Below the pieces are notes generated by a model. It made no database searches and was not told the origin of the DNA. It worked only from the letters and a program-made list of their open reading frames with translations. DNA of 64,000 bases from Microglena sp. YARC (lineage: Eukaryota; Chlorophyta; Chlorophyceae; Chlamydomonadales; Chlamydomonadaceae). The stretch spans positions 176,311,179 to 176,375,178 of the forward strand of contig CM039462.1 in assembly GCA_022414725.1 (NCBI GenBank), written 5' to 3'. Positions 4,276 to 59,640 of the stretch are shown here, in pieces (positions within the stretch are counted from its first letter, which is position 1; each line of letters opens with the position of its first letter). The position numbers were made by a program, and so were the translations under genes.

Positions 4276-7200
4276 CTGCATTACCAAAACCCAGCACAGT
4301 AACCATTCCCCAGTGTAAGTGAACTGGAAGGTTCCTTCAACCTCACGCCCCGTGGCAAGGCGTGTGCATTTTAAATTTTCACGGGTGGAACACCATCTCA
4401 AAGTATAAAAGTTAGATAGGAGAGGTTGGTGGTCACAGTATCTTTTAGGGGCTATCCATAGCACAGCTTCTAGGCAGCTCCCTTTCCCCCTCCTTGACCC
4501 AAACCTGAAGCTAGCAAGCGCAGCTGGAAGCTGCCATGAAGGGCATTCCAATGAAGCTGAAAGCATTGGGCTTGACTCAGTGGCTGGCTAATGGAGCTGG
4601 CTGGAAGCTGCCATGACAGGGTTTTTATATTCGTTTTTGAAGCCCCCCCTTTTCATAGCTATTCTGGTTCCGGAGCCATCTGACAAGTCTCCGTTTGTAG
4701 CTATTCATAGCTATTTTCAAATTGTCTTCTTTCAACATTCTAACTTATAACATCTTTAGGTATAGATGATTTGTATTGATCAGTACTGAGTAGGGAACGA
4801 CATTATGATATAATATGATGTCCTGTCATCAGTCTGCCTAGGCCGAAGTTACCACTTATCTACAATATCGTATGATGAAATTTGTGTGATATCATATGAT
4901 ATCATATTCGCCTCAACATCATATGATATGCTGGTCCCTAGTGCTGAGCAGCCATGCGTAGCCTGAACAAGTCCTATGCAGGGTCGCAAGCAATGTTACA
5001 AATTGGCGGAGTGTGTTGGCAATTGAACGAAAGGTGGCAACGGAAGCGAGTTAGTTACGAGAACGCTGGCTGACGTGCCAGGCTTCGTCTCGGGGGGGGG
5101 GGGGGGGGCGGGCGGCCGGACGCACAAACGGACTACGGGGTAACCCTGGGGGCTCCGCCACGAGGGGGCTCCGCCAAAAACAAACAGTGCTTTTATAGAC
5201 ATGTCAGTCCTGCTAGCCTTACCCGGAGTCCATGGTTGGCACCTTGTGCCCATAGCTGAGATGGTAGTGGAGAGTGAGGCCTCTAGCTTTGGTCCCTAAA
5301 CCGTAAACCCTACAACCCTACCTGGTGTCCATGGTTGGCACTTGGTTCCCATAGCGGAGATAGTAGCGAAGAGTGAGTCCTCTAGTTTTGGTCCCATGTC
5401 TTCAATTTTCTCCATTGCTGTGTTCTCGGCGTCACCATTCTCCTTGCCATTGGTGGACACATCCACATAGTTCTCACTCATAATCACATTAACCACAGGG
5501 TTGAACTGCATGGTTGGGTGGTTGGGTGGTTGGGTGGTTGGCAGACACATCCACATAGTTCTCACTCATAATCACATTAACCACAGGGTTGAACTGCATG
5601 GTTGGGTGGTTGGGTGGTTAGTGGTTGGTGGTTAGGTGGTTGGCAGACGCATCCACATAGTTCTCACTCATAATCACATTAACCACAGGGTTGAACTGCG
5701 TGGTTGGGTGGTTGGTTGGGGGTGGTTGGTTCTCACTCATAATCAAATGAACCACAGGGTTGAACTGCGTGGTTGGATTGTTGGTTGGGGGTGGTTGGTT
5801 CTCACTCATAATCACATTAACCACAGGGTTGAACTGCGTGGGTTAGGTTGGGTTGGTTTGGGTTCCAGGGTTTGGTTTGGTTGCGTTGGTTTGGGTTTCA
5901 GGGTAGGGTTGGGTTTCAGGGTTGGTGGGCAGGTGGGCGGGGACTACAAAAAAAGCTTCTTTTCGGGCAGTGAGTCCTAGGGGTCTAGGGATCTAAGATG
6001 AATTTTTCAAAGAGAGATCAACAGTACGAAAGAGAAATCGAGATTAGGAGGAGATGTCCACCAAGTTCTCACTCATCGTCACATCAACCACAGGTCAGGT
6101 TGGTTGGGGGTGGTTGGGGGTGGTTGGTTTTCACTCATCGTCACATCATCCACAGGGGAGGTAAGTGGTGACTGCGGTAGAGGTTGGTAAAGTGAAAGAA
6201 AAAAAACTGCCAGTTCCTACAGTGAAGCAAATCTCTGTTAAGTTCAAATTCAAATTTTAAATTGATTTCGAAAACTTGATTTGAAAAATTGAATTTTGAA
6301 TTTGAAAAATCTTGTTATGAGAAAGAAACTGCTACTTTTACCATGAAACAAATCTCGGTCGAGCTCAACGATGCGACAAAGCTGTGCATGACTGGGACAT
6401 GTTGATATCGGAGAAGTAAAGCGTGTCCCCAAGAAAAATGCAAGTTATTACCATGAAACAAAGCATGTGCTGAAAAAAACCCTGCCAGCTCCCACTGCGA
6501 AACAAATCTTGGTCGAGCTCAATGATGCAACAAAGGTCCCTGTGACCCGGTGGGATTTGAAAACCCTTTGACCCGGTGGGATTTGAAAAGTGATCCGGTG
6601 GAATTTGAAAACATTGCACATGGCAGCTCCTACCGTGAAACAAATATCTGTTTAGTTTGACTTTAATTTTGAATTTGAATTTGTAAAAATTGCACATGGC
6701 AGTTCCTACCGTGAAACAAATCTCTGTTGAGCTTGACTTCAATTTTGAATTTATAAAAATTGCACATGGTATTTCCTACCGCGAAACAAATATCTGTTGA
6801 GCTTGACTTCAATTTTGAATTTTGAATTTATAAAAATTGCACATGGCATTTCCTACCGTGAAACAAATCTCTGTTGAGCTTGACTTCAACTTTGAATTTA
6901 AATTTATAAAAATTGCACATGGCAGGTCCTACCGTGAAACAAATCTCTGTTGAGCTTGACGAGGCGACAAAGGTCCCTGTGGCCCGGGCGGCGAGGCCAG
7001 AGATCTGGAAGGTGATGGGGGCTGTGGTGAGCAGCACATCAGGTGTGCAGACCTCAGGGCTGCACACCGCTGGCATCTTGATATCAGGGGAGCAGACACC
7101 AGGGACGCAGACCTTGGGAATGCACGTGTCAGGAATGGTCGTCTTGCAGCAGCAGCTAAAACGGGGTTGGGATGTTTGGTTTGGTTTGGGATGGTTAGGT

Positions 7201-10200
7201 TTGGGATGGTTAAGTTTGGTTTGGTTTGGGTTGGCCTCAGGGCTGCACACCGCAGGCATGCTGCTATCTGGGGAGCAGACACCAGGGACGCAGACAGCGG
7301 GGATGCATGCTTCAGGAATGGTCGTCTTGCAGCAGCAGCTTGCAGCAGCAAAACGGGGTTGGGATAGGATGGGATGGGATGGGATGGTTTGGGGTGGTTT
7401 GGGATGGGACCTTGGGGATGCACGTGTTGGGAGTGGTCGTCTTGCAGCAGCAGCTAAAACGGGGTTGGGATGTTTGGTTTGTTTTGGTTTGGCTTAGATT
7501 GGTTTGGTTTGGGTTGACCTCAGGGCTACACACCGTGTGCATCTTGCTATCTGGGGAGCAGGCACCAGGGACGCAGACCTTGGGGATGCATGCGTCAGGA
7601 ATGGTTGTCTTGCAGCAGCAGCTTGCAGCAGCAAAACGGGGTTGGGATGGGATGGGATGGGTTAGGGCGTTTGGGATGGTTTGGAATGGTTTGGGATGGG
7701 ACCTTGGAGATGCACGTGTCAGGAATGGTTGTCTTGCAGCAGCAGCTGAAACAGGTTGGGGTTGGGGTTGGGGGTTGGGTTGGGATGGGTTGGGATAGGG
7801 TGGGATGGGGTGGGATGGGGTGGGATAGGGTTGGGATAGGGTGGGATAGGGTTGGGGTTGGGGGTGTGGTTGGGATGGGTTGGGATAGGGTTGGGTTTGG
7901 GGGTGTGGTTGGGATAAGTTGGGATAGGGTTGGGGGTGTGGTTGGGATGGGTTGGGATAGGGTTGGGGTTGGGGGTGTGGTTGCGATGAGTTGGGATAGG
8001 GTTGGGGTTGGGGGTGTGGTTGGGATGGTTTGGGATAGGGTTGGGGTTGGGGTTGAAGGGGTGGTTGGGATGGGTTGGGATAGGGTTGGGGGTGTGGTTG
8101 GGATGGGTTGGGATTGGGTTGGGGTTGGGGGTGTGGTTGGGATGGGTTGGGATAGGGTTGGGGTTGGGGGTGTGGTTGGGATGGGTTGGGATAGGGTTGG
8201 GGTTGGGGGTGTGGTTGGGATGGGTTGGGATAGGGTTGGGGTTGGGGGTGTGGTTGGGATGGGTTAGGATAGGGTTGGGGTTGGGGGTTTGGTTGGGATG
8301 GGTTGGGATAGGGTTGGGGTTGGGGGTGTGGTTGGTATGGGTTGGGATAGGGTTGGGGTTGGGTGTGTGGTTGGGATGGGTTGGGATAGGGTTGGGGTTG
8401 GGTGTGTGGTTGGGATGGGTTGGGATAGGGTTGGGGTTGGGTGTGTGGTTGGGATGGGTTGGGATAGGGTTGGGGTTGGGGGTGTGGTTGGGATGGGTTG
8501 GGATAGGGTTGGGATAGGGTTGGGGTTAGGGGTGTGGTTGTGATGGGTTGGGATAGGATTGGGGTTGGGGGTGTGGATGGGATGGGTTGGGATAGGGTTG
8601 GGGTTGGGGGTGTGGTTGGGATAGGTTGGGATAGGGTTGGGGGTGTGGTTGGGATGGAATGGGATAGGGTTGGGGTTGGGGTGGGGTTGGTATGGGTTGG
8701 GATAGGGTTGGGTATGGGGGTGTGGTTGGGATGGGTTGGGATAGGGTTGGGGTTGGGGGTGTGGTTGGGATGGGTTTGGTTAGGGTTGGGGTTGGGGGTG
8801 TGGTTTGGATGAGTTGAGATAGGGTTGGGGGTGTGGTTGGGATGGGTTGGGATAGGGTTGGGGTTGAAGGTGTGGTTGGGATGGGTTGGGATAGGGTTGG
8901 GGTTGGGGGTGTGGTTGGGATGGGTTGGGATAGGGTTGGGGTTGGGGGTGTGGTTGGGATGGGTTAGGATAGGGTTGGGGTTGGGGGTGTGGTTGGGATG
9001 GGTTGGGATAGGGTTGGAGTTGGGTGTGTGGTTGGGATGGGTTGGGATAGGGTTGGGGTTGGGAGTGTGGTTGGGATGGGTTGGGATAGGGTTGGAGTTG
9101 GGGGTGTGGTTGGGATGGGTTGGGATAGGGTTGGGGTTGGGTGTGTGGTTGGGATGGGTTGGGATAGGGTTGGGGTTGGGGGTGTGGTTGGGATGGGTTG
9201 GGATAGGGTTGGGTTGGGGTGTGGTTGGGATGGGTTGGGATAGGGTTGGGATAGGGTTGGGGTTAGGGGTGTGGTTGTGATGGGTTGGGATAGGATTGGG
9301 GTTGGGGGTGTGGATGGGATGGGTTGGGATAGGGTTGGGGTTGGGGGTGTGGTTGGGATAGGTTGGGATAGGGTTGGGGGTGTGGTTGGGATGGAATGGG
9401 ATAGGGTTGGGGTTGGGGGTGGGGTTGGTATGGGTTGGGATAGGGTTGGGTATGGGGGTGTGGTTGGGATGGGTTGGGATAGGGTTGGGGTTGGGGGTGT
9501 GGTTGGGATGGGTTTGGTTAGGGTTGGGGTGGGCGGTTGAAGGGTGGTTGGGATGGTTTGGGTTGGGGTTGATGGGTTGGGATAGGGTTGGGGTTGGGGG
9601 TGTGGTTGGGATGGGTTAGGATAGGGTTGGGGTTGGGGGTGTGGTTGGGATGGGTTTGGGATAGGGTTGGAGTTGGGTGTGTGGTTGGGATGGGTTGGGA
9701 TAGGGTTGGGGTTGGGAGTGTGGTTGGGATGGGTTGGGATAGGGTTGGAGTTGGGGGTGTGGTTGGGATGGGTTGGGATAGGGTTGGGGTTGGGGGTGTG
9801 GTTGGGATGGGTTGGGATAGGGTTGGGGTTGGGGGTGTGGTTGGGATGGGTTGGGATAGGATTGGGGTTGGGGGTGTGGATGGGATGGGTTGGGATAGGG
9901 TTGGGGTTGGGGGTGTGGTTGGGATGGGTTGGGATAGGGTTGGGGTTGGGTGTGTGGTTGGGATGGGTTCGGATAGGGTTGGGGTTGGGGGTGTGGTTAG
10001 GATGGGTTGGGATAGGGTTGGGGTTGGGTGTGTGGTTGGGATGGGTTGGGATAGGGTTGGGGTTGGGAGTGTGGTTGGGATGGATTGGGATAGGGTTGGG
10101 GTTGGGTGTGTGGTTGGGATGGGTTGGGATAGGGTTGGGGTTGGGTGTGTGGTTGGGATGGGTTGGGATAGGGTTGGGGTTGGGGGTGTGGTTGGGATGA

Positions 10201-12238
10201 GTTGGGTAAGGGTTGTGGTTGGGAGTGTTGTTGGGATAGGTTGGGATAGGGTTAAGGGTGTGGCTGGGATGGGTTGGGATAGGGTTGGGGGTGTGGTTGA
10301 GATGTAATGGGATAGGGTTGGGGTTGGGGGTGTGGTTGGTATGGGTTGGGATAGGGTTGGGGTTGGGAGTATGGTTGGAATGGGTTGGGATAGGGTTGGG
10401 GTTGGGGGTGTGGTTGGTATGGGTTGGGATAGGGTTGGGGTTGTGGGTGTGGTTGGGATGGGTTGGTAGAGGGTTGGGGTATGGGGGTATCGTTGGGATG
10501 GTTTGGGTCAGGTTTGGGGTTGGGGGTGTGGTTGGGATGGGTTGGGATAGGGTTGGGGTTGGGTGTGTGGTTGGGATGGGTTGGGTAAGGGTTGTGGTTG
10601 GGAGTGTGGTTGGGATAGGTTGGGATAGGGTTAAGGGTGTGGCTGGGATGGGTTGGGATAGGGTTGGGGGTTTGTTTGAGATGTAATGGGATAGGGTTGC
10701 GGTTGGGGGTGTGGTTGGTATGGGTTGGGATAGGGTTGGGGTTGGGAGTATGGTTGGAATGGGTTGGGATATGGTTGGGGTTGGGGGTGTGGTTGGCATG
10801 GGTTGGGATAGGGTTGGGGTTGAGGGTGTGGTTGGGATGGGTTGGTAGAGGGTTGGGGTATGGGGGTATCGTTGGGATGGTTTGGGACAGGTTTGGGGTT
10901 GGGGGTGTGGTTGGGATGGGTTGGGATAGGGTTGGGGTTGGGTGTGTGGTTGGGATGGGTTGGGATAGGGTTGGGGTTGGGGGTGTGGTTGGGATGGGTT
11001 GGGATAGGGTTGGGGTTGGGTGTGTGGGTGGTATGGGTTGGGATAGGGTTGGGGTTGAAGGTGTGGTTGGGATGGGTTGGGATAGGGTTGGGGTTGGGGG
11101 TGTGGTTGGGATGGGTTGGGATGGATTGGGATAGGGTTGGGGTTGGGTGTGTGGTTGGGATGGGTTGGGATAGGGTTGGGGTTGGGTGTGTGGTTGGGAT
11201 GGGTTGGGATAGGGTTGGGGGTGTGGTTGGGATGGGTTGGGATAGGGTTGCGGTTGGGGGTGTGGTTAGGATGGGTTGGGATAGGGTTGGGGTTGAGGGT
11301 GTGGTTGGGTTGGGATAGGGTTGGGGTTGGGGGTGTTGTTGAGATGGGTTGGGATAGGGTTGTCATTGGGGGTGTGGTTGGGATGGGTTGGGATAGGGTT
11401 GGGGTTGGGGGTGAGGTTGGGATGGGTTGGGATAGGGTTGGGGTTGGGTGTGTCGTTGGGATGGGTTCGGATAGGGTTGGGGTTGGGGGTGTGGTTGGGA
11501 TGGGTTCGGATAGGATGGGATGGGATGGGATGGGATGGGATGGGATGGGATGGGATGGGATGGGATGGGATGGGATGGGATGGGAAGGGATGGTTTGTTT
11601 TGTTTTGTTTTGTTTTGTTTTGTTTTGTTTTGTTTTGTTTTGTTTTGGTTTGGTCTGGCCTGGCCTGGATTGGTTCGGTATTTTTGGTATGGTTTGGCTT
11701 TGTTTGGCTTGATTTGGTTTGGTTTGGTTTGGTTTGGCTTGGTTTGGTTTGGCTTGATTTGGTTTGGTTTGGTTTGGTTTGGTTTGGTTTGGGTTTTGGG
11801 TTAGGTGTTAATATTATATATTATTATGATAAAGGTTATGGGATTAGGGTTGGTTTGTTTTTGGGGGAGTCAGGTTTTATATTTTGTGCGCAGGTCTTTT
11901 GCACACTTTTGAATTTGATTTTGAATTTGAAATGGTACATTTTGTTTTACCTGCCGTCCACGCACGTATTACAGCAGCAGCCACCACATGCCCTCTATGC
12001 ATTTCATACTGTTTACCCCCCCACACACACCCACCCACCCATCCCCACCCCACCCACACACTCACCATACAAGCACACCCTGTGCGTGCCAGCCTACACC
12101 ATCCCGGGTGTCAGCACCCTGGAGGCATGTAATCCCCCCCCCCCCCCCCACACACACACACACACACATACCACACACAAACCCACACTCACACACACTC
12201 CCACCCATATCCCCCCCCCACCCACCCACCCACAATCC

Positions 12239-12269
<31 letters not shown>

Positions 12270-14922
12270 ACACACACACAAAAACCCACCCACCCACACC
12301 CTGTGCGTGCCAGCCTACACCATCCCGGGTGTCTGCACCCCGGAGGTATGTAACGCCCCACCCCACACACACACCACAACCTACACCCCAAACTCCACAC
12401 ACCAATAGTTGATTTGTTTACCTGCCGGCCACGCAAACCTTGCAGCAGCTTCCACCACAGCAGCAGCTCTCCGGGGTACACACCTGGCGAAAGAAATGGG
12501 GGTTGGGTTGGTTAGAGTTAGTTTTTATTGGTCAGGGTTTGTTTGGGTTCGTTTGGGTTGGTCTGGTTTGAGTCACGCCTGGCCCAAGAAATGGGGGTTG
12601 GGTTGGTTATAGTTGGTTATAGTTGGTTATGGTTGGTTTATGTTGGTTTGGGTTGGTCTGGCTTGAGTCACACCTGGCACAAGAAACGGGTTTGGGTGGG
12701 TTAGGGTTGGTTAGGGTTGGTTTGGTTTGGTTTGGTTTGGTTAGGGTTGGTTAGGGTTGGTCTGGTTTGAGTCACACCTGGCGTAAGAAATGGGGGTTGG
12801 ATTGGTTATGGATGGTTAGGGTTGGTTAGGGTTGGTAGAAGGTGGTCTGGTTTTAGTCACACCTGGCGCAAGAAATGGCTTTTGGGTTAGTTAGGGTTGG
12901 TTATATTGGTTAGGGGTGGTTTGGGTTGGTCTGGCTTGAGTCACACCTGGCCCAATAAATGGGGGTTGGGTTGGTTAGGTTGGTTGTATTGTTTTGGGTT
13001 GGTTTGGTTTGGTCTGGCGTGAGTCACACCTGGCCCAAGAAATGAGTTTTGGGCTGGTTAGGGTTGGTTGGGGTTGGTTAGGGTTGGTTTGGTTTGGTCT
13101 GGTTTGAGTCACTCCTGACGCAAGAAACATGTAGTTGAATTATCTACATAGCTTCTTATTTGAAGCCCTTCCTGTCACGGCTGGGCAAGTTCCTTTGGCT
13201 GATTTGGCCTACCCCTGGACTGTAACATACATACATAGCAAGAACTTCAGGTCCCCATACATGGTTTACGATTGTTTGCGTTCAGTTCACTAGAGCTTGT
13301 TCTTTTTAATTGCCTTTCCTGTTTCAAGGGTTGGCAAGCTCCTTTAGCCTATTCAGCTGCCCCTGGACTGTAACAATACAAACATACTAGGGATTGATTT
13401 CCCGCTATGTATATATATATATATATATATATATAAAGAAATCATGGTCGTGGTCGTGGTCGTGGTCGCGGTGGTCGTGGTGGTGTCATCGCGTAACCGA
13501 CTTAACCAACTTCCCGCCCAGCCAATTCTCGCTCAGCCAATTCACGCTTTTAATCCCTCCTGCTTCAACTTCCGTCTGATTGGCCTCCTTCGAATTCTGC
13601 CTTATGCAACCTTCGCCTCCTGCGTATTCTACCTGTTGCGCATCCAGCCCGATTTCTCCTTTTCCCGCCTGTGTTCATCCACCTGATTTCGGTAGCGCTA
13701 CAGTTCGTCTTCCTACAAGCTTTTCTCCCTGATTGGCCTCCTGCGAATTCTCTTATGCAACCTTCGCCTCCTGCTTATTCTACCTGTTGCGCATTCCGCC
13801 CGATTTCTCTTTTTCCCGCCTGAGTTCATCCACCTGATTTCGGTAGTGCTACAGTTCGTCTTCATACAAGCTTTTCCCTCTGCAAGACCTTTCCCTTGCG
13901 TCAAGAGACCTGTCGCTGCGCACAACGGGAGGTGACGTGGTGAGTCAGCCGAACTGTCAGAAATGTCCGAATCGCATCCATCCCATGTCACAAACTTGAC
14001 TGCAAATTCTTCCCACTGCATTGAGAAACATGTCGCTCCGCATTGTGCCATAGCAAGTACGCATCAAAGTTGACCGAATGAAAAATCTCGCTGAGCATTC
14101 TCGCCCTAACTTGACCGAACATCTAAAATCAGCAACTTGACTGCAACTTCTTCCCACTGCATCGAGAGACATGTCGTCGCTGTGCATTGTGCTATAGCGA
14201 GCACGCGGCAAAGTTGAATGGATGAACTTAGCGATGTTTCCAAGTCTCAGATCGAGTTGACTTCGGGAGCAGTTGCGGTGAACAGGATTGTTCGTCGGCC
14301 GAACTGAATACATGCTCGCTAACAAGAAGCTTTAGTTACGTTCAGTTGCGATTGCGCAGGTTCAGCTCTTTCAGTGGGGTCGACTATCGATCACAGCTGA
14401 GGTGGCAGGGAAGCAGGTCCGATGCTTTTAGCGGAGTCGGATGATGCGCAAACGTTGTCGATGCTCATCGTCCCGTTTGCCTTTCAGCTATGGCAAAGCC
14501 CACAGCTGAAGTGGAGGGAGGCAGATATGGAGTATGTGTGTGCTGGTGGGTGCGTGTAGGAGGGAGGAGAGGGATGAGAGTGGGGAGAGGGTGGGGGCTG
14601 GTGGGATGGCTGGGTGGGGGAAGGGATGGAGTCAGGAAATATGTCAGGAAGAGTAAGGGAGTATGTTTGTGGGCGGGGGTACATGGTTGGGTGGGGGTGG
14701 GGGTGGGGGTGGAGATAACTGGAGGGGGGGGGGAGTAAGGTGGTGTTTGTGTGCTTGTGGGTGCACAAGGGAGACCATCGCAAGGGATATGCGTCCGTCA
14801 ATGTTTGAAGTTGCGTGCACTACAGAGAAAAACCGTTTTGCAACCCAGCCCAAAACAGGTGTGGCCAACGGGAGGGAAGGGGGGAGGGGGCGGATAATGG
14901 TATGGTGGCGGTGGTGTGTGAA

Positions 14923-14953
<31 letters not shown>

Positions 14954-15092
14954 TTGAAGTGTCAACCATTATGTAACCAGCCCAAAATAGGTGTGGCCAA
15001 AGGCCAAACGGGCACAGTACTATGATTGGGGGGGAGGGGGGGGTCTTCATGAGAGTTGGTGTGGCCACCGGCCACACGGGCTACCGTACTAG

Positions 15093-15145
<53 letters not shown>

Positions 15146-20615: not shown

Positions 20616-20667
<52 letters not shown>

Positions 20668-29283: not shown

Positions 29284-29319
<36 letters not shown>

Positions 29320-32980: not shown

Positions 32981-32983
32981 CAG

Positions 32984-33179: not shown

Positions 33180-33196
33180 CTCATCAGGGAGGAACG

Positions 33197-33409
33197 TAGT
33201 GATTTTTTTTCAAATCTGTTAGTGGGTTTTCCCTAGCTTTATGGTTTTAGGCCTCTTCCAGGGACAGCGTTTTAGTGCTTTCTATAGCTTTTTGTAGCTT
33301 TTTAGGGCCCTTTAAGGCAAGCAAAAAAAAAAATTCTCATATAGCGATAATTTCGCTCAAACGGGGTCAAAACTTGCGATCGCTATTATAGCGGAAATAA
33401 AAATCCCTG
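33197..33409 (-). mobile_element. hAT-type MITE with 8-bp TSD GAGGAACG
   Basis: GAGGAACG at 33,189-33,196 and 33,410-33,417. Inverted relative of 26,391-26,611, ending GGAAATAAAAATCCCTG. It sits 9 bp from the previous element's target duplication. Confidence 0.85.
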
Positions 33410-33439
33410 GAGGAACGTGATGGATGTATTATATCGTAG

Positions 33440-33742
33440 AATAAAATTACATCAGTAGCACGAGCTCAGGGCCCCCGTCGATAAAACAATTGTTTGGAGT
33501 TCAGTTCATCAATGCCTTTTATTTGTAGCTCTACCTGTCATGGTTGGGCAAGTCCCTTTCGGGTATTTGGCATACCCCTGGACTGTAACATACATACATC
33601 ATCATCATCATGATCAGAGCGGCGTTAGACGGGAAAGAGCCCCGAACAATAAAGCATGGATGAATCAATTCCCCAATGTCAGACCTGCTGCCTTGGAAGA
33701 GGTAGAGAACTTCCCTCCATCCTGTCACTCGGTAGTTGAAGC
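33440..33742. repeat. RepB copy and 3' flank of copy C
   Basis: RepB without the Harbinger insert seen near copy B (empty site at CAAGTCCCTTTCGGGTATTT). The 33,600-33,742 part aligns with 4,120-4,258 and is the probable 3'UTR. Confidence 0.6.
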
Positions 33743-33759
33743 TCAGGCACAATAGCAGT
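33743..33759 (-). CDS. Copy C coding exon 8
   Basis: TAGTGCAG, then AC TGC TAT TGT GCC TGA, giving ...WTPDCYCA-stop. Same stop position as copy B. Confidence 0.6.
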
Positions 33760-39406: not shown

Positions 39407-39454
<48 letters not shown>

Positions 39455-42408: not shown

Positions 42409-42451
<43 letters not shown>

Positions 42452-42807
42452 TGCAGGCAGGGCAATGTGGGGCTAGATGGTCCTACCTAGTGAGCCATTA
42501 CCCTGCAGTGGGTTGTGGACCATTGCTAGTCTAGTCTCACTCGAGCACCTCTAGGGTTGCATCCTTACACAATCCTGATAGCCTATGCATTTGCCTTTGC
42601 ATCCTGTCTGTTTTTGTTACCTATCCTGTCTGTTTTTGTTACCTATCCTGTCTTCCTGTTGTTTGATCATCTAAATGTATGTTACAGTCCAGGGGTAGCC
42701 AAACAGGCTAAAAGGACTTGCCCAACCTCTCGATGTTTGGAGACTTCCAGCGTGATTGAGAAGGTGCCTGGGGCTAATATTTTCAGACTAGCCTGGCTCA
42801 CAGTGTA

Positions 42808-42838
<31 letters not shown>

Positions 42839-46048: not shown

Positions 46049-49000
46049 GTAAGGCGGACAGCTGTTGTATCACTACAAATGTGGGGGGGTCTTCCGTGCC
46101 CTTTTCTGCACCCTTATAGCAATTCAGGGGATGATTTGGGAAGCACACTTTGTGCTTCGGACTTGGTTCACAGAATCTCAGGCCAATTATCGAGAATTCT
46201 AGCGAGAATTCTCAGATTTCCAGGCCAATTTCTCAATTTCATGTACAAAGTCCGGATTCTTCAGAAATCTTGAACCCAAATCATCCCTGAATGGCTATAA
46301 GTCACCCTTCCCACCCAGAATGCACCTGTATAACAGGAGTTTAAAAAGGTGTGACCCCTGATGCCTACAAAACCTGAGGAGGGCTGCCCCCCCCCCCCCC
46401 CACACACCACACCACCACACACACACCACCACCACCACCACCACCACCCCCTTTAACATAAATAAAAGGCATGACTTCAATTGATACACGGATTCTGGGT
46501 CTGCACACTACGGCGCACACAATTGAATGGTATCCTCAGAATTCCCAAACAGGGATTGTGTGATAGACAAAATACTCACCCACCCATCCACAATACCCAC
46601 CCACTCATCCACTCACCCATACCCACCCATCCATACCATCCATACTACCCATACTCACCCATTCATCCACCCAGTCACCCACCCATACACCCATCCATAC
46701 CACCCATTCAGAATTACCTGAAAATAAGATCAAAACATAGCCATTAATCACGCCATTATAGTCCCATTCTCAGACAAAATCGATCGGCATATGTAAATTT
46801 TGGAGGCCTGGGCATCTCCTGCTTGTAATGAGCCAAATAAAGGGTGCATTGTGGGGGTGACACAGGGGTGCAGAAAAGGGTGCCTATAACCGGTCAAGGA
46901 CCCCCTAAATAAAGGGTGCATTGTGGGGGTGACACAGGGGTGCAGAAAAGGGTGCCTATAACCGGTCAAGGACCCCCTAAATAAAGGGTGCATTGTGGGG
47001 GTGACACAGGGGTGCAGAAAAGGGTGCCTGTAACCGGTCAAGGACCCCCTAAATAAAGGGTGCATTATGGGGGTGACACAGGGGTGCAGAAAAGGGTGCC
47101 TATAACCGGTCAAGGACCCCCTAAATAAAGGGTGCATTGTGGGGGTGACACAGGGGTGCAGAAAAGGGTGCCTGTAACCGGTCAAGGACCCCCTAAATAA
47201 AGGGTGCATTATGGGGGTGACACAGGGGTGCAGAAAAGGGTGCCTATAAACCGGTCAAGGACCCCCTAAATAAAGGGTGCATTATGGGGGTGACACAGGG
47301 GTGCAGAAAAGGGTGCCTATAACCGGTCAAGGACCCCCTAAATAAAGGGTGCATTATGGGGGTGACACAGGGGTGCAGAAAAGGGTGCCTAAAACCGGTC
47401 AAGGACCCCCTAAATAAAGGGTGCATTATGGGGGTGACACAGGGGCTGCAGAAAAGGGTGCCTAAAACCGGTCAAGGACCCCCTAAAATAAAGGGGCATT
47501 ATGGGGGGTGACACAGGGGTGCAGAAAAGGGTGCCTATAACCGGTCAAGGACCCCCTAAATAAAGGGTGCATTATGGGGGTGACACAGGGGTGCAGAAAA
47601 GGGTGCCTAAAACCGGTCAAGGACCCCCTAAATAAAGGGTGCATTATGGGGGTGACACAGGGGTGCAGAAAAGGGTGCCTAAAACCGGTCAAGGACCCCC
47701 TAAATAAAGGGTGCATTATGGGGGTGACACAGGGGTGCAGAAAAGGGTGCCTAAAACCGGTCAAGGACCCCCTAAATAAAGGGTGCATTATGGGGGTGAC
47801 ACAGGGGTGCAGAAAAGGGTGCCTATAACCGGTCAAGGACCCCCTAAATAAAGGGTGCATTATGGGGGTGACACAGGGTGCAGAAAAGGGTGCCTATAAC
47901 CGGTCAAGGACCCCCTAAATAAAGGGTGCATTATGGGGGTGACACAGGGGTGCAGAAAAGGGTGCCTATAACCGGTCAAGGACCCCCTAAATAAAGGGTG
48001 CATTATGGGGGTGACACAGGGGTGCAGAAAAGGGTGCCTATAACCGGTCAAGGACCCCCTAAATAAAGGGTGCATTATGGGGGTGACACAGGGGTGCAGA
48101 AAAGGGTGCCTATAACCGGTCAAGGACCCCCTAAATAAAGGGTGCATTATGGGGGTGACACAGGGGTGCAGAAAAGGGTGCCTAAAACCGGTCAAGGACC
48201 CCCTAAATAAAGGGTGCATTATGGGGGTGACACAGGGGTGCAGAAAAGGGTGCCTAAAACCGGTCAAGGACCCCCTAACTTTGTAGTGTCATACATACAT
48301 ACATGCTCAGAGAGATGTACATAATTTAATTTAATCAAATTGACTTGTATTTACGTGAATTGAATGCATTTAAATGATTCATATGTGATTAATTTGAATT
48401 CAATTGAATTGAATTTATTTGAATTGACTTGAATCGATGAATGCTGAAGCATTGCTGAGTATGAAGTAACGAAAAGGGGGCAATTTTGGTTTTTTTTTAT
48501 TTTTAAGCAGTATTGAACGTGCCTGAACTGTCATGCAATGCAATGACCCAGTGTACATCAGCTTTATTTGTAAGTATTTGATGCACACAAAATGAGATGA
48601 ATCAGGCGTTGTGTTGATTTGAGGGAATTTTTACAAGGCAAGTTTTTTACAAGACAAGGCAGTACAAGGCAAGTACAAGGCAGTGCATGTTTCGGCTGGG
48701 TGCTTCGTACCGTCCAAGTCTGGGCTGGATGGTATATACCAGGGTACTACAAAGCACGTGCGGCAGCGCGATTTCGCGCACGCTCTTTGAGCCCCACTGC
48801 GCATTTCACACAGTTTTTTTAACCCCCTGTAGGCGCAGCGCACAGTTTTTGAGCTTTTTGCACTATTAAGCGCTGACCAATTTAACAAAATGTAGTAGCT
48901 TGGTACATACCGTTCCAGAAGTTTGTGGCCACCAATAGTCAATAAACGTGATAATGCAAGTATGGGTAGTGGAGGGTGTGTGGGTAGTGGAGACCTTGGA

Positions 49001-52000: not shown

Positions 52001-55000
52001 AGCCTAGCGTTTACTGCCAATCATGTGATGATGCAAGTATGGGTAGTAGAGGGGTGTGTGGGTAGTGGAGACCTTGGGTAAAAGGGGGTGGAAAGGAAGC
52101 ATAGCGTTTACTGCCAATCATGTGATGATGCAAGTATGGGTAGTGTTGGGTGTGGCCACCAGGAGCTTGTGGACGTATAAATCAAGCTCGTAGCTCACAG
52201 CCCGAAGCTCAGAGCTCGAAGCTCAACGCTGGGGGCTCAAAGCTGGGAGCTGGAAGCTGGAAGATCAAAGCTGGGGGCTTAAAGCTGGGAGCTTGAAGCT
52301 CAAAGCTCAAAGCTGGAAGCTCAAAGCTCAAAGCTCAAAGCTGGAAGCTCAAAGCTCAAAGCTCAAAGCTCAAAGCTCAAAGCTCAAAGCTGGAAGCTGG
52401 AAGCTCAAAGCTGGAAGCTCAAAGCTGGAAGCTCAAAGCTGGAAGCTCAAAGCTGGAATTTCAAAGCTGGAAGCTCAGAGCTGGGGGCTCAAAGCTGGAA
52501 GCTCACAGCCCGAAGCTCAAAGCTGGGGGCTGGAAGCTGGAAGCTCAAAGCTGGAAGCTCAAAGCTGGAAGCTCAAAGCTGGAAGCTCAAAGCTGGAAGC
52601 TCAAAGCTGGAAGCTCAAAGCTGGAAGCTCAAAGCTGGGGGCTGAAAGCTGGGAGCTGGAAGCTCAAGCTGGAAGCTGGAAGCTGGAAGCTGAAAGCTGG
52701 AAGCCCAAAGCTCAAAGCTGAAAGCTCGAAGAAGGAATTAAGAAGAAGGAAGGGCCCAGACACCAATTAAACAAGAAGGAAAGAAGAAGAAAAATGCATA
52801 TTTTAGGAGGAGGATGGCAGCAGGACGATGTGCATTGACAGCAAGTCTAGGGGAATTGCATTCGACCCACTCACGTACACTCTCACATTACTATACATGA
52901 CAAACCAAACACACAAGTCAACCCCTATAATTAAGTGTATGATAATAATATAAAACAATACAAAATAATCAATAAACCAATCAGCCAAGAGGGAAAGAAA
53001 AGACCATGTATACTTAAGCAGGAGGAGGGTAGCAGTGTGGTGTGCATTGACTGCCAATTCAGGGGGATCGTATTCAAACCACTCGCATACACGCTCACAT
53101 ACGAATACATGAATAATAATATACAAACAATTATAGGAGGAGGGCAGCAGTATGGTGTGCATTGACAGCTAGTCTAGGATGAGTACATTCAACCCACTCA
53201 CGTGCACTCTCACATACTTGAATACAAAAACATGAATAAACACCTATAATGGAGTGTATGATAAGAATATAACCTGCCGCCATATCAAGAGCGAAACACA
53301 TAAATAAACCCCTATAACTAAGTGTATGATAATAATATTAACCACCCTTTTAGGAGGAGGAGGGCAGCAGTATGGTGCGCATTTGCAGCGAGTCTAGGGG
53401 AATTACATTCAACCCACTCACGTACACTCTCACATAATTATACATGAATAATAATATAAAAACAATTATAGGAGGAGGGCAGCTGTATGGTGTGCATTGG
53501 CAGTGATTCTAGGGAATTGCATTCAAGCCACTCATGTACACTCTCTCAACCTTGAATACAAAAACATGAATTATCGCAGATAACAAAGCGAATGATAATA
53601 ATATAAACCACCCTTGTAGGAAGAGGGCAGCCGTATGGTGTGCATTGACAGTGAGTCTAGGGGAGTCGCATCCAACCCGGTCACGTACACTCTCACATAC
53701 TTACACACGATCGTATTGATTCCTACACCGCTGTGTCCGTTGTGCAGGAATCAAGCTGTGAGGCCCCGTGAGGCACCCAGATTTTCATCGATACTTGCAC
53801 GATACTCCACGATACCCTAGGCTAACTCAGGCTAACTCAAGCTGCTGCTCTCGGGGTGGGGGGTGGGGGGGGGCTGCTGTCGGTACGACGGGCACACTGC
53901 CCTAGTGTCTAGCGTTTTTCGTCTAGCAAAACTGTAATCGTGCAGAATCGTTATAAACGATTTTTAATGTTTTCATGTTCCCAAAGTGCAGACCCAGGAA
54001 TTGGACCCAAACGATTATTAATGTTTCGTCCAAAAACCTTAGGAAAATCACTGACGAAGAACCAAACTCAAAAATCACTTTTAGGAGGAGGAGGGCAGCA
54101 GTATGGTACGCATCGATGGCGAGTCTAGGGGGATCGCGACAGAAGAAGCCTTTGGACCTTTGTCTGTCTTGCTCGTGGGCTTCCTCCCAGAAGATGTTGC
54201 GGCCTTCCATTGTCTTATGGAGGAGATGGAGGCGCAGATGATTAAGGTGGGTGCATGATTTGAATTTGAATTTGAATTTGAATTCGGACCTTTTTCTTTC
54301 TTGCTGGTGGGCTTCCTCCCTGAAGGTCTTACGGAGGTGATGGAGGCGCAGATGATTGAAGGTGAGTGTATCATAATATCATTTGAATTTAAATTTGAAT
54401 TTGACAGATATAGCCTTTGGACCTTTGTCTCTCTTGCTTGTGGCCTTCCTCCCTGAATTAAGGTGACTGCATGGTTTGAATTTGAGTTTGAATATGGACC
54501 TTCGTCTGTTTTGCTCGTGGGCTTCCTCCCAGAAGATGGCGAGGCCTTCCATCGTCTCATGGAAGAGATGGAGGCACAGAGGATTAAGGTGGGTGCATGA
54601 TTTGAATTTGAATTCAGAACTTAGTCTGTCTTGCTTGTGGGCTTCCACACTGAAGACCTCAAGGCCTTCCATCGTCTCATGGAGGTGATGGAGGCAAAGA
54701 TGATTAGGGTGAGCATATGATTTTAATTTAAATTTGAATTTGACAGATCTAGCCTTCGGACCTTTGTCTCTCTTGCTCGTGGGCTTCCTCTCTGACTGAG
54801 AGTGAGTGCATGATTTGAATTTGGATTTGAATTCGGACCTTTTTCTGTCTTGCTCGTTGGCTTTCTCCCAGAAGATGTCAAGATCTTCCATCGTCTCGAG
54901 GTGATGGAGGCACAGATAATTGAAGGTGGGTGTATCATAATATCACTTGAATTTAAAGTTGAATTTGACAGATCCAGCCTTTGGACCTATGTCTCTCTTG

Positions 55001-58000
55001 CTCGTGGGCTTCCTCCCTCAATTAAGGTGAGTGCATGATTTGGATTTGAATTTGAATTCGGACCTTTTTCTGTCTTGCTCGTTGGCTTCCTCCCAGAAGA
55101 TGTCGATATCTGCCATTGTCTTATGGAGGTGATGGAGGCACAGATGATAAAGATGAGCAGGTTATATGAATTTAAATTTAAATTTGACAGATCTAGCCTT
55201 AGGACCTTTGTCTCTCTTGCTTGTGGCCTTCCTCCCTGACTGAAGGTGGGTGCATGATTTGAATTTGAATTCGGGCCTTTGTCTGTCTTGCTCGTGGGCT
55301 TCCTCCCAGAAGATGTCGAGACCTTCCATTATCTTATGGAGGTGATGGACGCACAGATGATTGAAGGTGGGTGCATGATTTGAATTTGAATTTGAATTTG
55401 AATTTGGACCTTTTTCTGTCTTGCTGGTGGGCTTCCTCCCTGAAGGTCTTATGGAGGTGATGGAGGCGAGGATGATTAAGGTGAGTGCATGATTTGAATC
55501 TGAATTTGAATTTGACAAAACCCACACACCACTCACCACACACCGCACACCACACACCACACACGCCAATGTCCTCTCTGCAGGTCATCCCGTGTAACCA
55601 GGCTTTGCTGAAGGGCACCCTCCATGCGGCTTTTGAGATAGACCCTGTTCCCGAGTACCAGCAGCCCCCCTTGGGTCAACGGAGGGTTGTGATTATGTCA
55701 GGTGTGTATTTGTGTGTGTGCGCATGTATATGTGTGTATGTCCATGTATGCGTGTATGTGCATGTATATGTGTGTATGTGCATGTATGTATGTGTGTATG
55801 TATGTATGTATGTAATGTATGTATGTATGTGTGTGCGTGTATGCATGTAAGTATGCATGTATGTAAGTATGTATTTATGTATATGTGTGTTTATGTATGT
55901 GCGCGTATGTTTGTATTTACATGTGTGTGTATGTATGTATATGTATGCATGTATGTGTATGTATGCATGTACGGATGTGTGTATGTATATGTATTGATAA
56001 GTATATGTGTGTATGCATGTGAGTGTACGTATTTGCGTATGTATGTATGTATGTATGTAAGTATGTATGTAAGTAAACCTTGAGCCCAGAATCCCTGTGT
56101 CCTCTTTTCAGGCATGTTTGGGTCTGAGACGATAGATATGGCTCCAAGCTTCCGTGAATACGGACTTCTCTGAACCCTAAACCCTGAACCCTGAGCCCTG
56201 AACCCCTATATCCTCTTTACAGGCATGTTTGGGTCTGTGACGATAGATGTGGCTTCAAGCTTCTGTGAGTACAGCCTATCCAAGGGTAAACGCCCTAGAC
56301 CCTAAACCATCAGCCCTAAACCCAGAGCCCTGAAACCAGAACCCCTATATCCTCTTTTCAGGCATGTTTGGATTAGAGGTGATTCATGTGGTGTCAAGCT
56401 TCCATGAGTATGGCCTTCCACAGGCTAAACACCCTAAACCCTAAGCCCCAAACCCTGAGCCCTAAAGCCAGAACCCCTATATCCTCTTTTCAGGCATGTT
56501 TGGATCAGAGGTGATTGATATTGTTACAAGCTTTCGTGAGTTTGGCCTTCCCCCGTCGGTGTTTGCTGTGGCAGTACCCAACAACTGGTCCCGAGTTGTC
56601 GAGGGCCTGATTAAGGAGGTGTGCGCTGATGACGCAGCCATGGTGCGTGGGCTCAGAGGGTGGACACACATACACGCTCACCTACCACTTACACACAAGC
56701 ACACACAAACACACATGCACACACACATATATAATGCACACATACACATACGCACAAACACACACAAACACACGCACACACATCAGCTGTAGCTGTACCC
56801 AACAACTGGACCCGAGTTGCCAAGACCTGATTGAGAAGGTGTGCGGATGATGATGCAGCCATGGTGCGTGGGCTCAGAGGGGGGACACACATACACACTC
56901 TCTTTTGATCTGAAACATATATAAACACACGAACACACACACACACAAACATACACACATATCTGACGCACACATTCACACAAACACACACACATATATC
57001 TGACGCACACATCCACACACACACTCACATATCTGACGCACACATTCACACAAACACACACACATATATCTGACGCACACATCCACACACACACTCACAT
57101 ATCTGACGCACACATACACATTACACAAAGACACTGATGGTGTGTGGGGTCAGGAGGTGGACACACAAACACACACAAGCACACACACATACACACACGC
57201 ATGCACACACACATACACACACACATACACACACGCATGCACACACACCTGCACATACACATGCACACACGCATGCACACACATACACTCACACATACAC
57301 ACACGCATGCACACACACCTGCATATACACTCACACATACACACACATACACACACATACACACACGCATGCACACACATCTGCACATACACTCAAACAT
57401 ACACACACATACACACACGCATGCTCACACACCTGCACATACACTCACACATACACACACATACACACACATGCACACACACCTGCACATACACTCACAC
57501 ATACACACCCGCATGCACATACACTCACAAAACAAACACATACATACACTCTTCCTCCCTTCAACATGCGTACATGCACAAACAAACAAATACACGTTGT
57601 CTTACACAAACATACACCCAAACACAAATATGGCCTTGCATACAGTCACACACACACGTGCACACACACAAGCACATATCACCTTGCAGTCACACACATA
57701 CATACACGCACAAACAAACAAACACACGTGGTCTGACACTAACACACTCCCAAACACAAATACTCCCTTACATGCAGTGACACACATGCATGCACACACG
57801 TTGTCTTACACAAACACACACCCAAACACAAATATCACTTTACATGCAGTCACGCACATGCATACACACACAAACACACACACTTCCCAAACACAAATAT
57901 CACCTTACATGCAGTCACACACACGCATACACACACAGACACACACCCAAACACAAATATCATATTCCATACAGTCACACACACGCATGCATACACATAC

Positions 58001-59502
58001 AAATACACACGCATACACACCCAAACACAAATATCACCTTACATACAGTCACACACACGCATGCATACACATACAAACACACACAGACACACACACAAAC
58101 ACAAATATCATATTCCATACAGTCACACACATGCATGCATACACATACAAATACACACGCACACACACACAAACACAAATATCACCTTACATACACTTAC
58201 ACACATACACACACACACACACACACAAACACAAGTATCACCTTACATACAGTCACACACACGCATACACACACATGCATGCAGACACACACAAACAAAC
58301 ACACAAACACACTTACACACACACACACACACAAACACAAATATCACCTTACATACAGTCACACACACGCATACACACAAACACAAATATCACCTTACAT
58401 GCAGTCACACACATGCATGCATACACACAAACAAACACACACACACACACACACAAGCACAAGTATCACCTTACATACAGTCACACACACGCATACACAC
58501 ACATGCATGCAGACACACACAAACAAACACACAAACACACATACACACACACACACACACACACAAACACAAATATCACCTTACATACAGTCACACACAC
58601 GCATACACACACAAACACACACAAACACAAATATCACCTTACGCACAGTCACGCACATGCAAACACACACAAACACAAATATCACCTTACAAACAGTCAC
58701 ACACTCATACACATACAGCTCTTGCGCGTGAATAAGAATAAGAATAAGAAGCCTGCACACACAGGTCTTCATGTGAACATGCAATATCCTTTTATCCCAC
58801 CCCACTGGCTGCTCTAAAAGGTACTACATTTTGTCAAATTGGTCAGCGCTTAAAGCGCGCAAACGTTAAATTGGTCAGCGCTTTCTAGTGCAAAAAACGC
58901 AAAAACTGTGCGCTGCGCCCACAGGGAGTTGAAAAAACTGTGTGAAAAGCGCAGTGGGGCTCAAAAAGGCAGGGCGTACCCTGCTGCTGAATCTGTACAG
59001 GCTCACACGTGCTCGTGTATAATTAAATGATGAATTGCTGGCTGAAGCTATGTAACCAAATTGAAGTTCAAGTTCAAGTTATCCCACCCCACAAGCTCAC
59101 ACAGGCTCGCACATGCTCACATGTGCTCGTGTAGAATTCAATGATCACTGTAGCAAAAACTCAGGGCCTCCGTCGGTAAAACGATTTATTGAGGGTTCAG
59201 TTCATCAAAGCTTTTCCTTTTTAGCTCTTCCTATCACGGTTGGGCAAGTCCCTTTAGCTTATTTGGCCTACCCCTGGACTGTTACATACATCCACCCCAA
59301 ATCAACTCCCAAGCCCTTCACTCTACATCTCACACCCTCCCCACCTGCACCCCGATCTGCGTCCGGCTCCTTGTTCCTCACCCCCTCCTCACCCCCCACC
59401 CCACCACTACCGCCACCATCACCACACTCACTCCACATCTCGCACACACGTGCTCACTCTTTTCCCCTTTGACAGAAGCAACAGGCTGCTGAGGAAGAAT
59501 AA
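45701..59502 (+). CDS. Probable organelle-targeted protein with DUF3783-like C-terminal half (5 exons, 267 aa)
   Basis: Join: 45701-46048, 54085-54246, 55584-55701, 56494-56642, 59476-59502 (804 nt, stop included, phases 0-0-1-0). Residues 1 to ~100 are Ser/Arg-rich with few acidic residues, typical of a chloroplast or mitochondrial transit peptide. Then [20 protein letters not shown], a conserved-looking domain [20 protein letters not shown]...[20 protein letters not shown], and [20 protein letters not shown]...[15 protein letters not shown]...LIKEV, ending MKQQAAEEE. The SG(M/F)..EEV, GLPP and (A/T)VPNNW pattern resembles DUF3783, from memory of that family. Function unknown. Intron 1 is 8.0 kb and intron 4 is 2.8 kb, both repeat-filled; exons 2, 4 and 5 have decoy copies nearby. 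Confidence 0.75.
46049..46847. other. Start of intron 1: unique sequence, poly-C/CA and CCCACCCATCCA repeats
   Basis: 46,050-46,380 is unique-looking, with GAGAATTCT direct repeats near 46,195-46,225. C-rich and (CAC)n tracts at 46,388-46,450; CACCCATCCATACC-type repeats at 46,575-46,705. No gene is seen. Confidence 0.6.
46848..48285. repeat. 72-bp satellite array (~20 units) in intron 1
   Basis: Unit ACCCCCTAAATAAAGGGTGC / ATTATGGGGGTGACACAGGG / GTGCAGAAAAGGGTGCCTAT / AACCGGTCAAGG. Near-identical units, differing mainly at ATTATG/ATTGTG and CTATAA/CTAAAA. One related unit occurs at 22,065-22,125. The 24-codon period keeps minus-strand frames open. Confidence 0.95.
48286..48735. other. AT-rich AATTGAATT tract and short repeats
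   Basis: GAATTCAATTGAATTGAATT-type sequence at 48,330-48,440 and ACAAGGCAAGTACAAGGCAG repeats at 48,635-48,690. Nothing coding. Confidence 0.6.
48740..48902 (-). mobile_element. hAT-type MITE, CAGGGTACTAC family, inverted
   Basis: CAGGGTACTACAAAGCACGT to AAAATGTAGTAGCTTG. Flanks GTATATAC (48,732-48,739) and GTACATAC (48,903-48,910) form an 8-bp duplication with one mismatch. Confidence 0.8.
48935..52150. repeat. 97-bp satellite array (~33 units) in intron 1
   Basis: Unit ATCATGTGATGATGCAAGTA / TGGGTAGTGGAGGGTGTGTG / GGTAGTGGAGACCTTGGAGG / GGAAGGGGGTGGAAAGGAAG / CATAGCGTTTACTGCCA. Units are nearly identical; those at 50,320-51,010 and 51,490-52,080 carry small indels. Homogeneity implies recent expansion or gene conversion. 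Confidence 0.95.
52190..52735. repeat. AGCTGGAAGCTCAA 7/14-bp minisatellite
   Basis: Tandem AGCTCAA and AGCTGGA heptamers, about 75 units, ending in an AAGAAGGAA tract. Confidence 0.95.
52800..53720 (+). repeat. Acceptor-side decoy array of exon 2 (6 copies)
   Basis: Copies near 52,806, 53,022, 53,137, 53,352, 53,471 and 53,618 repeat the acceptor (T)TAG/GAGGAGG and the exon start up to GGCAGCAGTATGGTGTGCAT / TGACAGCGAGTCTAGGGGAA ([14 protein letters not shown]), then diverge into CCCACTCACGTACACTCTCA. Only the copy at 54,085 continues into TEEAFGPLS. Confidence 0.85.
54085..54246 (+). CDS. DUF3783-like gene, exon 2
   Basis: 162 nt after [63 protein letters not shown], donor GTGGGT. Phase 0 at both ends fits exons 1 and 3. 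Confidence 0.75.
54247..55500 (+). repeat. Exon 2 duplication array in intron 2 (~11 copies, two size classes)
   Basis: Long class (~95 nt; near 54,494, 54,617, 54,831, 55,058, 55,271; shortened at 54,285 and 55,405): GGACCTTTGTCTGTCTTGCT to ATTAAG/GTGGGT, open and encoding [21 protein letters not shown] but without an acceptor AG. Short class (~60 nt; near 54,407, 54,748, 54,971, 55,188): GACAG/AT.TAGCC...CTGA.T.AAG/GTGAGT, with both acceptor and donor. The classes partly alternate and are joined by TTTGAATTTGAATTTG. Confidence 0.85.
55584..55701 (+). CDS. DUF3783-like gene, exon 3
   Basis: 118 nt after [49 protein letters not shown] plus G, donor GTGTGT. No decoy copies seen; this is the only single-copy internal exon of the gene. 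Confidence 0.75.
55702..56085. repeat. (TGTATG)n-rich microsatellite in intron 3
   Basis: TGTATGTATGTG-type repeat beginning at the exon 3 donor. Confidence 0.95.
56112..56470 (+). repeat. Three upstream partial copies of exon 4 with CCCTAAACCC spacers
   Basis: Starts at 56,112, 56,223 and 56,362 after TTTCAG or TTACAG; each encodes GMFG(S/L)(E/V).I(D/H)(M/V)..SF.EY then breaks off into ACCCTAAACCCTGAGCCC. The second contains a donor-like CT/GTGAGTA. Telomere-like CCCTAAA lies between all copies. Confidence 0.85.
56494..56642 (+). CDS. DUF3783-like gene, exon 4
   Basis: 149 nt after [58 protein letters not shown], donor GTGCGT. It contains an internal C/GTGAGTT at 56,537 that could act as a cryptic donor. 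Confidence 0.75.
56643..58735. repeat. CA-rich array in intron 4 with exon 4 donor copies and a ~65-bp higher-order unit
   Basis: Partial donor-side copies of exon 4 lie at 56,785-56,875 (AACAACTGGACCCGAGTTGC...GCAGCCATG/GTGCGTGGG) and as a trace at 57,134. CA repeats follow with ACACGCATGC blocks. From 57,820 a unit CACAAATATCACCTTACATA/CAGTCACACACACGCATACA repeats about 13 times. Frames of 557 and 313 codons here are artefacts. Confidence 0.9.
58818..58985 (+). mobile_element. hAT-type MITE, CAGGGTACTAC family, worn ends
   Basis: GGTACTACATTTTGTCAAAT to GGGCGTACCCTG, with the family interior TGGTCAGCGCTTAAAGCGC. No clear target duplication. Confidence 0.6.
59140..59290 (+). repeat. RepB copy in intron 4
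   Basis: CACTGTAGCAAAAACTCAGG...CCTGGACTGTTACATACATC. Followed by C-rich CACCCTCCCCACC sequence leading to the exon 5 acceptor. Confidence 0.65.
59476..59502 (+). CDS. DUF3783-like gene, exon 5 (C-terminus)
   Basis: After the pyrimidine-rich TTTTCCCCTTTGACAG: AAG CAA CAG GCT GCT GAG GAA GAA TAA, giving ...[15 protein letters not shown]. It is short, but phase and acceptor fit and it ends the frame cleanly. Confidence 0.6.
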   Translation, partial: KQQAAEEE

Positions 59503-59640
59503 TGGGGACATAGTAGCGACTGCTGAGGATGAGTAATGAGTAATGAGGAAACATAGCAGCGGGCTGCTGAGGATGAGTAATGAGTGATGAGGAATCATAG
59601 CAGCGACTGCTGAGGATGAGTAATGAGTAATCATCGACTG
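59503..59640 (+). repeat. Tandem copies of the terminal exon with its stop codon
   Basis: GACTGCTGAGGATGAGTAATGAG repeats three times (near 59,518, 59,567, 59,607) as diverged copies of the [12 protein letters not shown] segment, placing extra stops in the 3'UTR. Confidence 0.7.

Follow-up and report, generated by a model that had tools for sequence, protein, structure and literature searches.

Tandem arrays of mirage type at the exon edges of three genes in a green alga

Background

Minisatellites which extend across exon-intron boundaries, a repeat type seldom described, have been named mirages. As described in the available portions of the two reports, they occur in the amphioxus genes Adh3, BflGb6 and BflGb9, the last two encoding globins (PMC3087553), and further in PGBD5 and troponin C (PMC3902484). 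Related behaviour is found in the variable internal tandem repeats of human segmental duplicates, where expanding minisatellites change the length of exons or introns and at times do so at a boundary (PMC2812944, available text). Arrays of this kind are also found in a 64,000-nucleotide stretch of Microglena sp. YARC (contig CM039462.1, positions 176,311,179 to 176,375,178), here called the window, in which parts of exon edges have been copied into adjoining introns at most splice junctions of three modelled genes. An earlier note on this DNA had seen the pattern and knew of no described name for it; mirage is such a name. Among the titles and abstract openings listed in literature searches, no algal case of exon-edge arrays was found, which does not prove absence from print.

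Exon edges copied into adjoining introns

The window is eukaryotic DNA rich in tandem repeats; a tandem-repeat finder run over all of it returned 205 rows. Three genes were modelled: the paralogues B and C on the minus strand, and D, which encodes a DUF3783 protein, on the plus strand. Copies of junctions (decoys) were sought iteratively, each search being seeded with the 52 bases around a junction. At least one copy was present in the adjoining intron at 25 of the 35 splice junctions (13 acceptor and 12 donor families). The raw total of 105 copies was reduced to 91 (50 acceptor, 41 donor) by setting aside four at stop codons, which were counted separately, and ten low-complexity hits, all among the 16 at the exon 7 acceptor of C.

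Two unrelated gene families thus have many exons whose edges have been copied in tandem into the introns on either side, as the earlier note had claimed. It gave a range of 1 to 8 copies; after low-complexity cleaning we find 1 to 11 per positive junction. Its statement that introns have been enlarged and splice-site-like sequences multiplied also stands, as junction-derived spans make up 31% of 37.6 kb of intron. Arrays were said to start at and include the exon ends. This does not extend to the exon 4 donor of C and the exon 3 donor of D, where an array lies against the exon or at most 12 bases from it and the exon itself is uncopied.

In B the positive junctions are both edges of exons 2, 5, 6 and 7, the exon 3 acceptor and the exon 4 donor. 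In C they are both edges of exons 3, 5, 6 and 7, the exon 2 donor and the acceptors of exons 4 and 8, and in D both edges of exons 2 and 4. The iterative search found no copies at the donors of exons 1 and 3 and the acceptors of exons 4 and 8 of B, at the exon 1 donor, exon 2 acceptor and exon 4 donor of C, or at the exon 3 acceptor, exon 3 donor and exon 5 acceptor of D. The start codons of B and C, like their exon 1 donors, have none. Copies are present downstream of two of the three stop-codon ends: one in B (after the putative exon 8) and three in D.

The placement of the copies is one-sided. In a symmetric search reaching 1500 bases to either side of 31 junctions (a set without exon 8 or the donors of exon 7), 24 junctions had a copy on the same strand at score 34, on the intron side in all 24; there were no reverse-strand copies at that score at any of the 31.

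The arrays are given below. All were found by copy search, and those marked "both" by the repeat finder as well, except where the repeat finder is named as the only source.

21228-21388, minus strand: B exon 2 acceptor array, 1 decoy (both)
20660-21185, minus strand: B exon 2 donor array, 6 decoys, GT lost in 3 (both)
18094-18270, minus strand: B exon 3 acceptor, 2 decoys
15300-15566, minus strand: B exon 4 donor, 1 decoy
12479-13127, minus strand: B exon 5 acceptor array, 7 decoys, just 5 exon bases copied (both)
11940-12422, minus strand: B exon 5 donor, 1 decoy
7155-7760, minus strand: B exon 6 acceptor, 4 decoys
6200-6960, minus strand: B exon 6 donor array, 6 decoys, unit 76 bases (both)
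5456-6165, minus strand: B exon 7 acceptor array, 6 decoys (both)
5220-5322, minus strand: B exon 7 donor, 1 decoy
44070-44309, minus strand: C exon 2 donor, 1 decoy
43419-43510, minus strand: C exon 3 acceptor, 1 decoy
42740-43337, minus strand: C exon 3 donor array, 4 decoys (both)
41764-42140, minus strand: C exon 4 acceptor, 1 decoy
41394-41634, minus strand: array abutting the C exon 4 donor, 39-base unit, about 6 copies, exon bases uncopied (repeat finder only)
38884-39331, minus strand: C exon 5 acceptor array, 5 decoys (both)
38538-38845, minus strand: C exon 5 donor array, 3 decoys (both)
36966-37830, minus strand: C exon 6 acceptor array, 4 decoys, 101-104 of the exon's 223 bases in each (both)
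36590-36744, minus strand: C exon 6 donor, 2 decoys
35229-35911, minus strand: C exon 7 acceptor array, 16 raw hits of which 6 decoys were retained (both)
34580-35119, minus strand: C exon 7 donor array, 4 decoys, unit 91 bases (both)
32472-32975, minus strand: C putative exon 8, all 41 bases of the exon copied 4 times upstream, unit 113 bases (both)
52800-54084, plus strand: D exon 2 acceptor, 6 decoys
54246-55500, plus strand: D exon 2 donor array, 11 decoys
56074-56493, plus strand: D exon 4 acceptor array, 3 decoys
56642-56880, plus strand: D exon 4 donor, 1 decoy
59476-59640, plus strand: end of the D terminal exon, stop codon with 3 downstream copies; no splice junction

Several further features of these arrays and their surroundings were observed. 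By eye, units at 41394-41634 contain both donor-like GTATTTAT and acceptor-like TTTTTACAG. Two inverted copies of the B exon 4 donor end, also noted by eye, lie at 12070-12350 (minus strand) in the intron after exon 5; they sit among GT/CA-rich repeats and are not a tandem product. A single intron of B holds a 3.8-kb G/T-skewed array (7754-11581; 39-base unit, about 99 copies), and the GC skew at 8001-10000 is 0.997. Telomere-like CCCTAAA recurs every 72 bases or so in an array at 46903-48201; there are 32 CCCTAAA sites in the window, including some in the arrays at the exon 4 acceptor of D and the exon 7 donor of C. Short AAATTC/GAATTT tracts were seen within the units of several unrelated junction arrays (54246-55500, 18111-18330 and 38540-38840), and simple AAATTC and CCAAC tracts are recurrent, again by eye. 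The AAATTC/GAATTT tracts may help slippage.

Gene models

The exons to which these arrays belong are as follows.

3496-25430, minus strand: gene B, Cys/Pro-rich protein, open spliced frame
25430-25208, 21285-21185, 18094-18012 and 15695-15566, minus strand: B exons 1-4, open spliced frame
12483-12422, 7155-6933 and 5505-5322, minus strand: B exons 5-7, open spliced frame; end of exon 7 putative
3536-3496, minus strand: B terminal exon 8, putative, without support from any relative
32478-45238, minus strand: gene C, paralogue of B, open frame
45238-45016, 44409-44309, 43419-43337 and 41764-41635, minus strand: C exons 1-4, open frame
38884-38823, 36966-36744 and 35229-35046, minus strand: C exons 5-7, open frame; end of exon 7 putative
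32518-32478, minus strand: C terminal exon 8, putative, without support from any relative; repeated upstream
54085-59502, plus strand: gene D, DUF3783 protein, open frame, Pfam DUF3783 at E=7.3e-12
54085-54246, 55584-55701, 56494-56642 and 59476-59502 (stop), plus strand: D exons 2-5, open frame

The putative exon 1 of D lies upstream of 54085, and the first intron of the gene is presumed to occupy about 46-54 kb. Exons 1 to 6 have the same lengths in B and C (223, 101, 83, 130, 62 and 223 bases); the introns of both genes are therefore at shared positions. Over the 274 codons compared, the two differ at 22 first, 25 second and 74 third codon positions, and such a preponderance of third-position differences is what coding exons should show.

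The 3' ends of B and C needed correction. The edges of exon 7 are copied, as had been noted, and the exon most likely ends in the donor CCAG/GTAGGG (the slash marks the junction), followed by the short terminal exon 8. An ending at the stop just after exon 7, which would make the adjacent array a stop-codon array, was considered and rejected: the donor is likelier because CCAG/GTAGGG is repeated and the terminal exon matches the frame.

The full exons sit on the outermost copy of each array and their frames are open. Two protein records cross the junctions in the same way: P0002 aligns to B over 166 amino acids with zero gaps, spanning three junctions (exons 4-7), and P0004 aligns to D over 147 amino acids with one gap, also spanning three junctions. 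Decoy insertions were not seen in either alignment; neither record is stated to be a transcript. These results uphold the claim that the functional junction is the one attached to the full exon. The DUF3783 relatives that bear names are Tetradesmus, Scenedesmus and one with a Chrzof1 identifier, which we take to be Chromochloris; such relatives make a chlorophycean green alga the probable source. No Pfam domain scored above the cut-off for the B and C products or for the predicted proteins P0001 and P0002, and RNA families gave 0 matches at the gathering score.

The shared intron positions bear on the idea that the introns themselves were born by tandem duplication of exon segments. Under this model of intron gain, duplicated pieces of exons, together with AG and GT, are expected within introns or next to them (PMC4974935 and PMC3087553, in the portions available), which speaks for it. 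However, the equal lengths of exons 1-6 put the introns of B and C at the same positions, and the copies lie inside these shared introns; such an origin is very improbable.

Probable tandem duplication tolerated at a single exon edge

We favour, at a probability of roughly 70%, tandem duplication of the ordinary kind in a genome rich in repeats, which is tolerated where it runs over a single edge of an exon. Segments straddling one edge would be duplicated in tandem and the surplus copies absorbed into the intron. The duplications would stem from the general tandem-repeat activity of the genome, which also fills intron interiors and the DNA outside the modelled genes. A single-edge duplication should be harmless, because the outermost copy still has the full exon with its original site; a duplication within an exon, or one that took in both splice sites, would change the protein and be lost. 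The spliceosome would skip the copies as half-exons lacking a partner site at the far end of the exon (exon definition), and not as weak sites. The rest of the exon, with the partner site, is present at the real site and absent from the resolved internal-exon copies.

Repeats are indeed abundant away from the junctions. Among probes of moderate complexity, a same-strand copy was found for 51% of 1798 in intron interiors and 38% of 2229 outside genes. Arrays with a period of at least 20 reach a density of 10.1 per 10 kb of intron, compared with 7.5 per 10 kb outside the modelled genes, a category which takes in the presumed first intron of D and is not purely intergenic. Copies at two of three stop-codon ends are what a splice-blind process would give; together with the repeats outside the modelled genes, they lead us to read the process as splice-blind.

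The extent of the copies was followed only as far as the next copy. Of the 91, 86 align through the junction, and the five which do not were left out; the median exon part is 47 bases, or 31% of the exon. None of 82 internal-exon copies reaches the opposite splice site, and the four whole copies are those of the putative 41-base terminal exon of C. For 22 of the 24 internal-exon families the median copy spacing falls between 57 and 233 bases; it is 368 and 471 in the two others, which are single far copies. The lack of whole internal-exon copies agrees with splice-blind tolerance, an agreement which turns on five single far copies, and the depletion is suggestive only. Frame-breaking gaps occur in the alignments of 16 of 56 copies. 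Four of these are terminal-exon copies whose alignment runs past the exon, and in several others the gaps cancel; with the four omitted, a net frame change is present in 7 of 52.

Copies have diverged from the real edges to very different degrees, with family mean exon-side distances of 0.01 to 0.44 (the exon 5 acceptors of B and C left out). This is one of several points against assembly errors as the source of the arrays. Long tandem arrays are hard to assemble, and one amphioxus mirage was reported as misassembled in the draft (PMC3087553, available text). Besides the divergence, however, spacing varies and the arrays are in unrelated genes. P0001 and P0003, predicted proteins apparently from the same genome, also hold decoy sequence (P0001 terminates within a decoy copy of exon 7, and P0003 includes a decoy copy of D exon 2), but these may share the assembly. 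We regard assembly error as highly unlikely.

Unit trees were made for the eight junctions common to B and C. The genes separate at two (the exon 6 acceptor, and the exon 2 donor with support 0.70) and not at the other six, in 70-base alignments of low resolution. Some arrays are likely to be older than the split of B and C; this is not proven, as the unit alignments are short. Copy number at shared junctions differs between the two paralogues, which were compared in one haplotype.

Splice-site content of the copies

AG or GT is intact in 78 of the 91 copies (AG in 43 of 50 acceptor copies, GT in 35 of 41 donor copies). With a leave-one-out matrix, 50 of the 91 equal or exceed the score of the real site, the copies being allowed a 3-base register shift. 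Selection keeping the decoy sites was favoured at first look, but detection was biased towards the core of the junction; when copies were detected with the core masked, 27 of 31 had kept AG and 20 of 25 had kept GT, and clear support was lost. Under the same masking, exon-side control positions were intact in 18-27 of 30-32 acceptor copies (0.60-0.87) and 10-19 of 16-24 donor copies (0.50-0.86). The exon side is the fairer control, because constraint acts on the coding exon as it does on the real site.

The decoys could in principle be functional, as spare or recursive splice sites which tune or stage the removal of long introns. The many intact dinucleotides, the high scores and a masked-core AG rate above every intron-side control all argue for such a role. 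Against it, intact rates are not clearly above those of the exon-side controls, copy number varies between B and C, and GT has been lost in three of the six B exon 2 donor copies. Clear evidence that decoys have been retained for a function is thus lacking in the sequences, and we consider such a role improbable.

Junction excess and possible boundary-aimed duplication

A number of results weigh against duplication that is merely tolerated at single exon edges. Copies were found at 26 of 34 junctions, where random, moderately complex positions drawn from the same introns would give 18.2 (sd 2.5; P=0.001); under a stricter score the figures for the same 34 are 21 observed and 15.9 at random (P=0.03). 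At 1446 intron-interior positions outside junction-derived spans, copies were present at just 31%. Thirteen of the 38 intron arrays with a period of at least 20 touch a junction, where 3.2 are expected if arrays are seeded from one unit; none of 3000 simulations reached 13. The shortage of whole-exon copies has P=0.002 overall and P=0.21 once the five single far copies are removed, and most copy spacings are too short to hold a whole exon. If selection froze the exon copy, the real edge should stand closer to the copies than they do to each other on the exon side; this was so in only 10 of 17 families (two of which, the exon 5 acceptors of B and C, extend beyond the copied exon part), and the means point the opposite way (0.240 real-to-copy, 0.198 copy-to-copy). 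Site strength also carries some information, although it does not clearly single out the real site, which is the best of its family, ties counted, in 10 of 12 donor families but in only 5 of 13 acceptor families. Finally, the masked-core AG rate is joint highest among 13 acceptor positions and well above the intron-side values of 0.42-0.61.

The excess at junctions is the main argument for a duplication process aimed at exon-intron boundaries, for instance through template switching or breaks that accompany transcription or co-transcriptional splicing. The comparison with random intron positions and that with one-unit seeds both favour it, and both exon sides are affected in all three genes. 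However, when arrays are placed at random at their full length, 9.0 are expected to touch a junction against the 13 observed (P=0.07). Copies also follow two of the three stop-codon ends, DNA outside the modelled genes is rich in repeats, and in B and C neither the start codons nor the donors of exon 1 have copies. The earlier note had suggested slippage or break repair at exon-intron boundaries, genome-wide; the density of repeats elsewhere, the stop-codon copies and an excess which is modest and depends on the null tell against a process aimed at them, and we think it unlikely. It is likewise unlikely that exon-intron edges are preferred duplication starts genome-wide in this lineage, for instance through breaks linked to transcription or splicing, with introns growing inward from their ends and many genes holding large numbers of near-perfect decoys which exon definition would have to reject.

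The association between arrays and junctions is real but modest, and its size varies with the null chosen. Under tolerated tandem duplication, the modest excess could reflect selection which freezes the exon copy, so that its relatives would be recognisable for longer than two free intron copies would; such an effect is not clearly visible in the distances given above.

Implications

The density of these arrays offers a natural experiment in splice-site choice, with up to 11 copies beside one exon and, over all arrays, 50 of 91 copies scoring as well as the real site. If splicing is accurate here, the choice of site must depend on the context of the exon. Predicted genes in genomes of this kind can take in decoys, as P0001 and P0003, apparently from this genome, both show.

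Comparison with known systems

Introner-like elements, which are known from algae too, are dispersed copies of one element which add repeats to introns. The arrays described here also enlarge introns by repeats; unlike introners, each resembles its own local exon edge, although it should be noted that copies were sought by similarity to that edge only.

Intron gain by tandem duplication, as in potato RdRp (PMC4974935, available text), is alike in that duplication runs over one intron-exon boundary and splice signals are inherited. It differs in that existing introns are enlarged here, B and C sharing their intron positions. In human segmental duplicates roughly half of these repeats fall within coding exons, according to the available text of PMC2812944, whereas the coding exons here are intact.

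Amphioxus mirages are the closest match. In both systems the tandem units consist of an intron end and the adjoining part of the exon, as at the 25 junctions here; both 5' and 3' boundaries are affected (here in 12 donor and 13 acceptor families), and AG and GT are kept in many but not all copies (here 43 of 50 and 35 of 41). Mirage units of 10-160 bases (PMC3087553, available text) overlap in size with the median spacings found here. Mirages also have length instability between haplotypes or in the soma, and concerted evolution within a cluster; in the one haplotype seen here, B and C differ in copy number, and their units separate at two of eight junctions in trees of low resolution. Splicing across amphioxus mirages is reported to be undisturbed, from RT-PCR (reverse transcription PCR; PMC3087553, in the portion available). 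Amphioxus is a chordate; the host here is a green alga, with 25 of 35 junctions affected in three genes. The arrays can be characterised as mirage-type minisatellites, for which the green-algal host and the density are new; mirages would thus extend from amphioxus to a green alga, and at high density.

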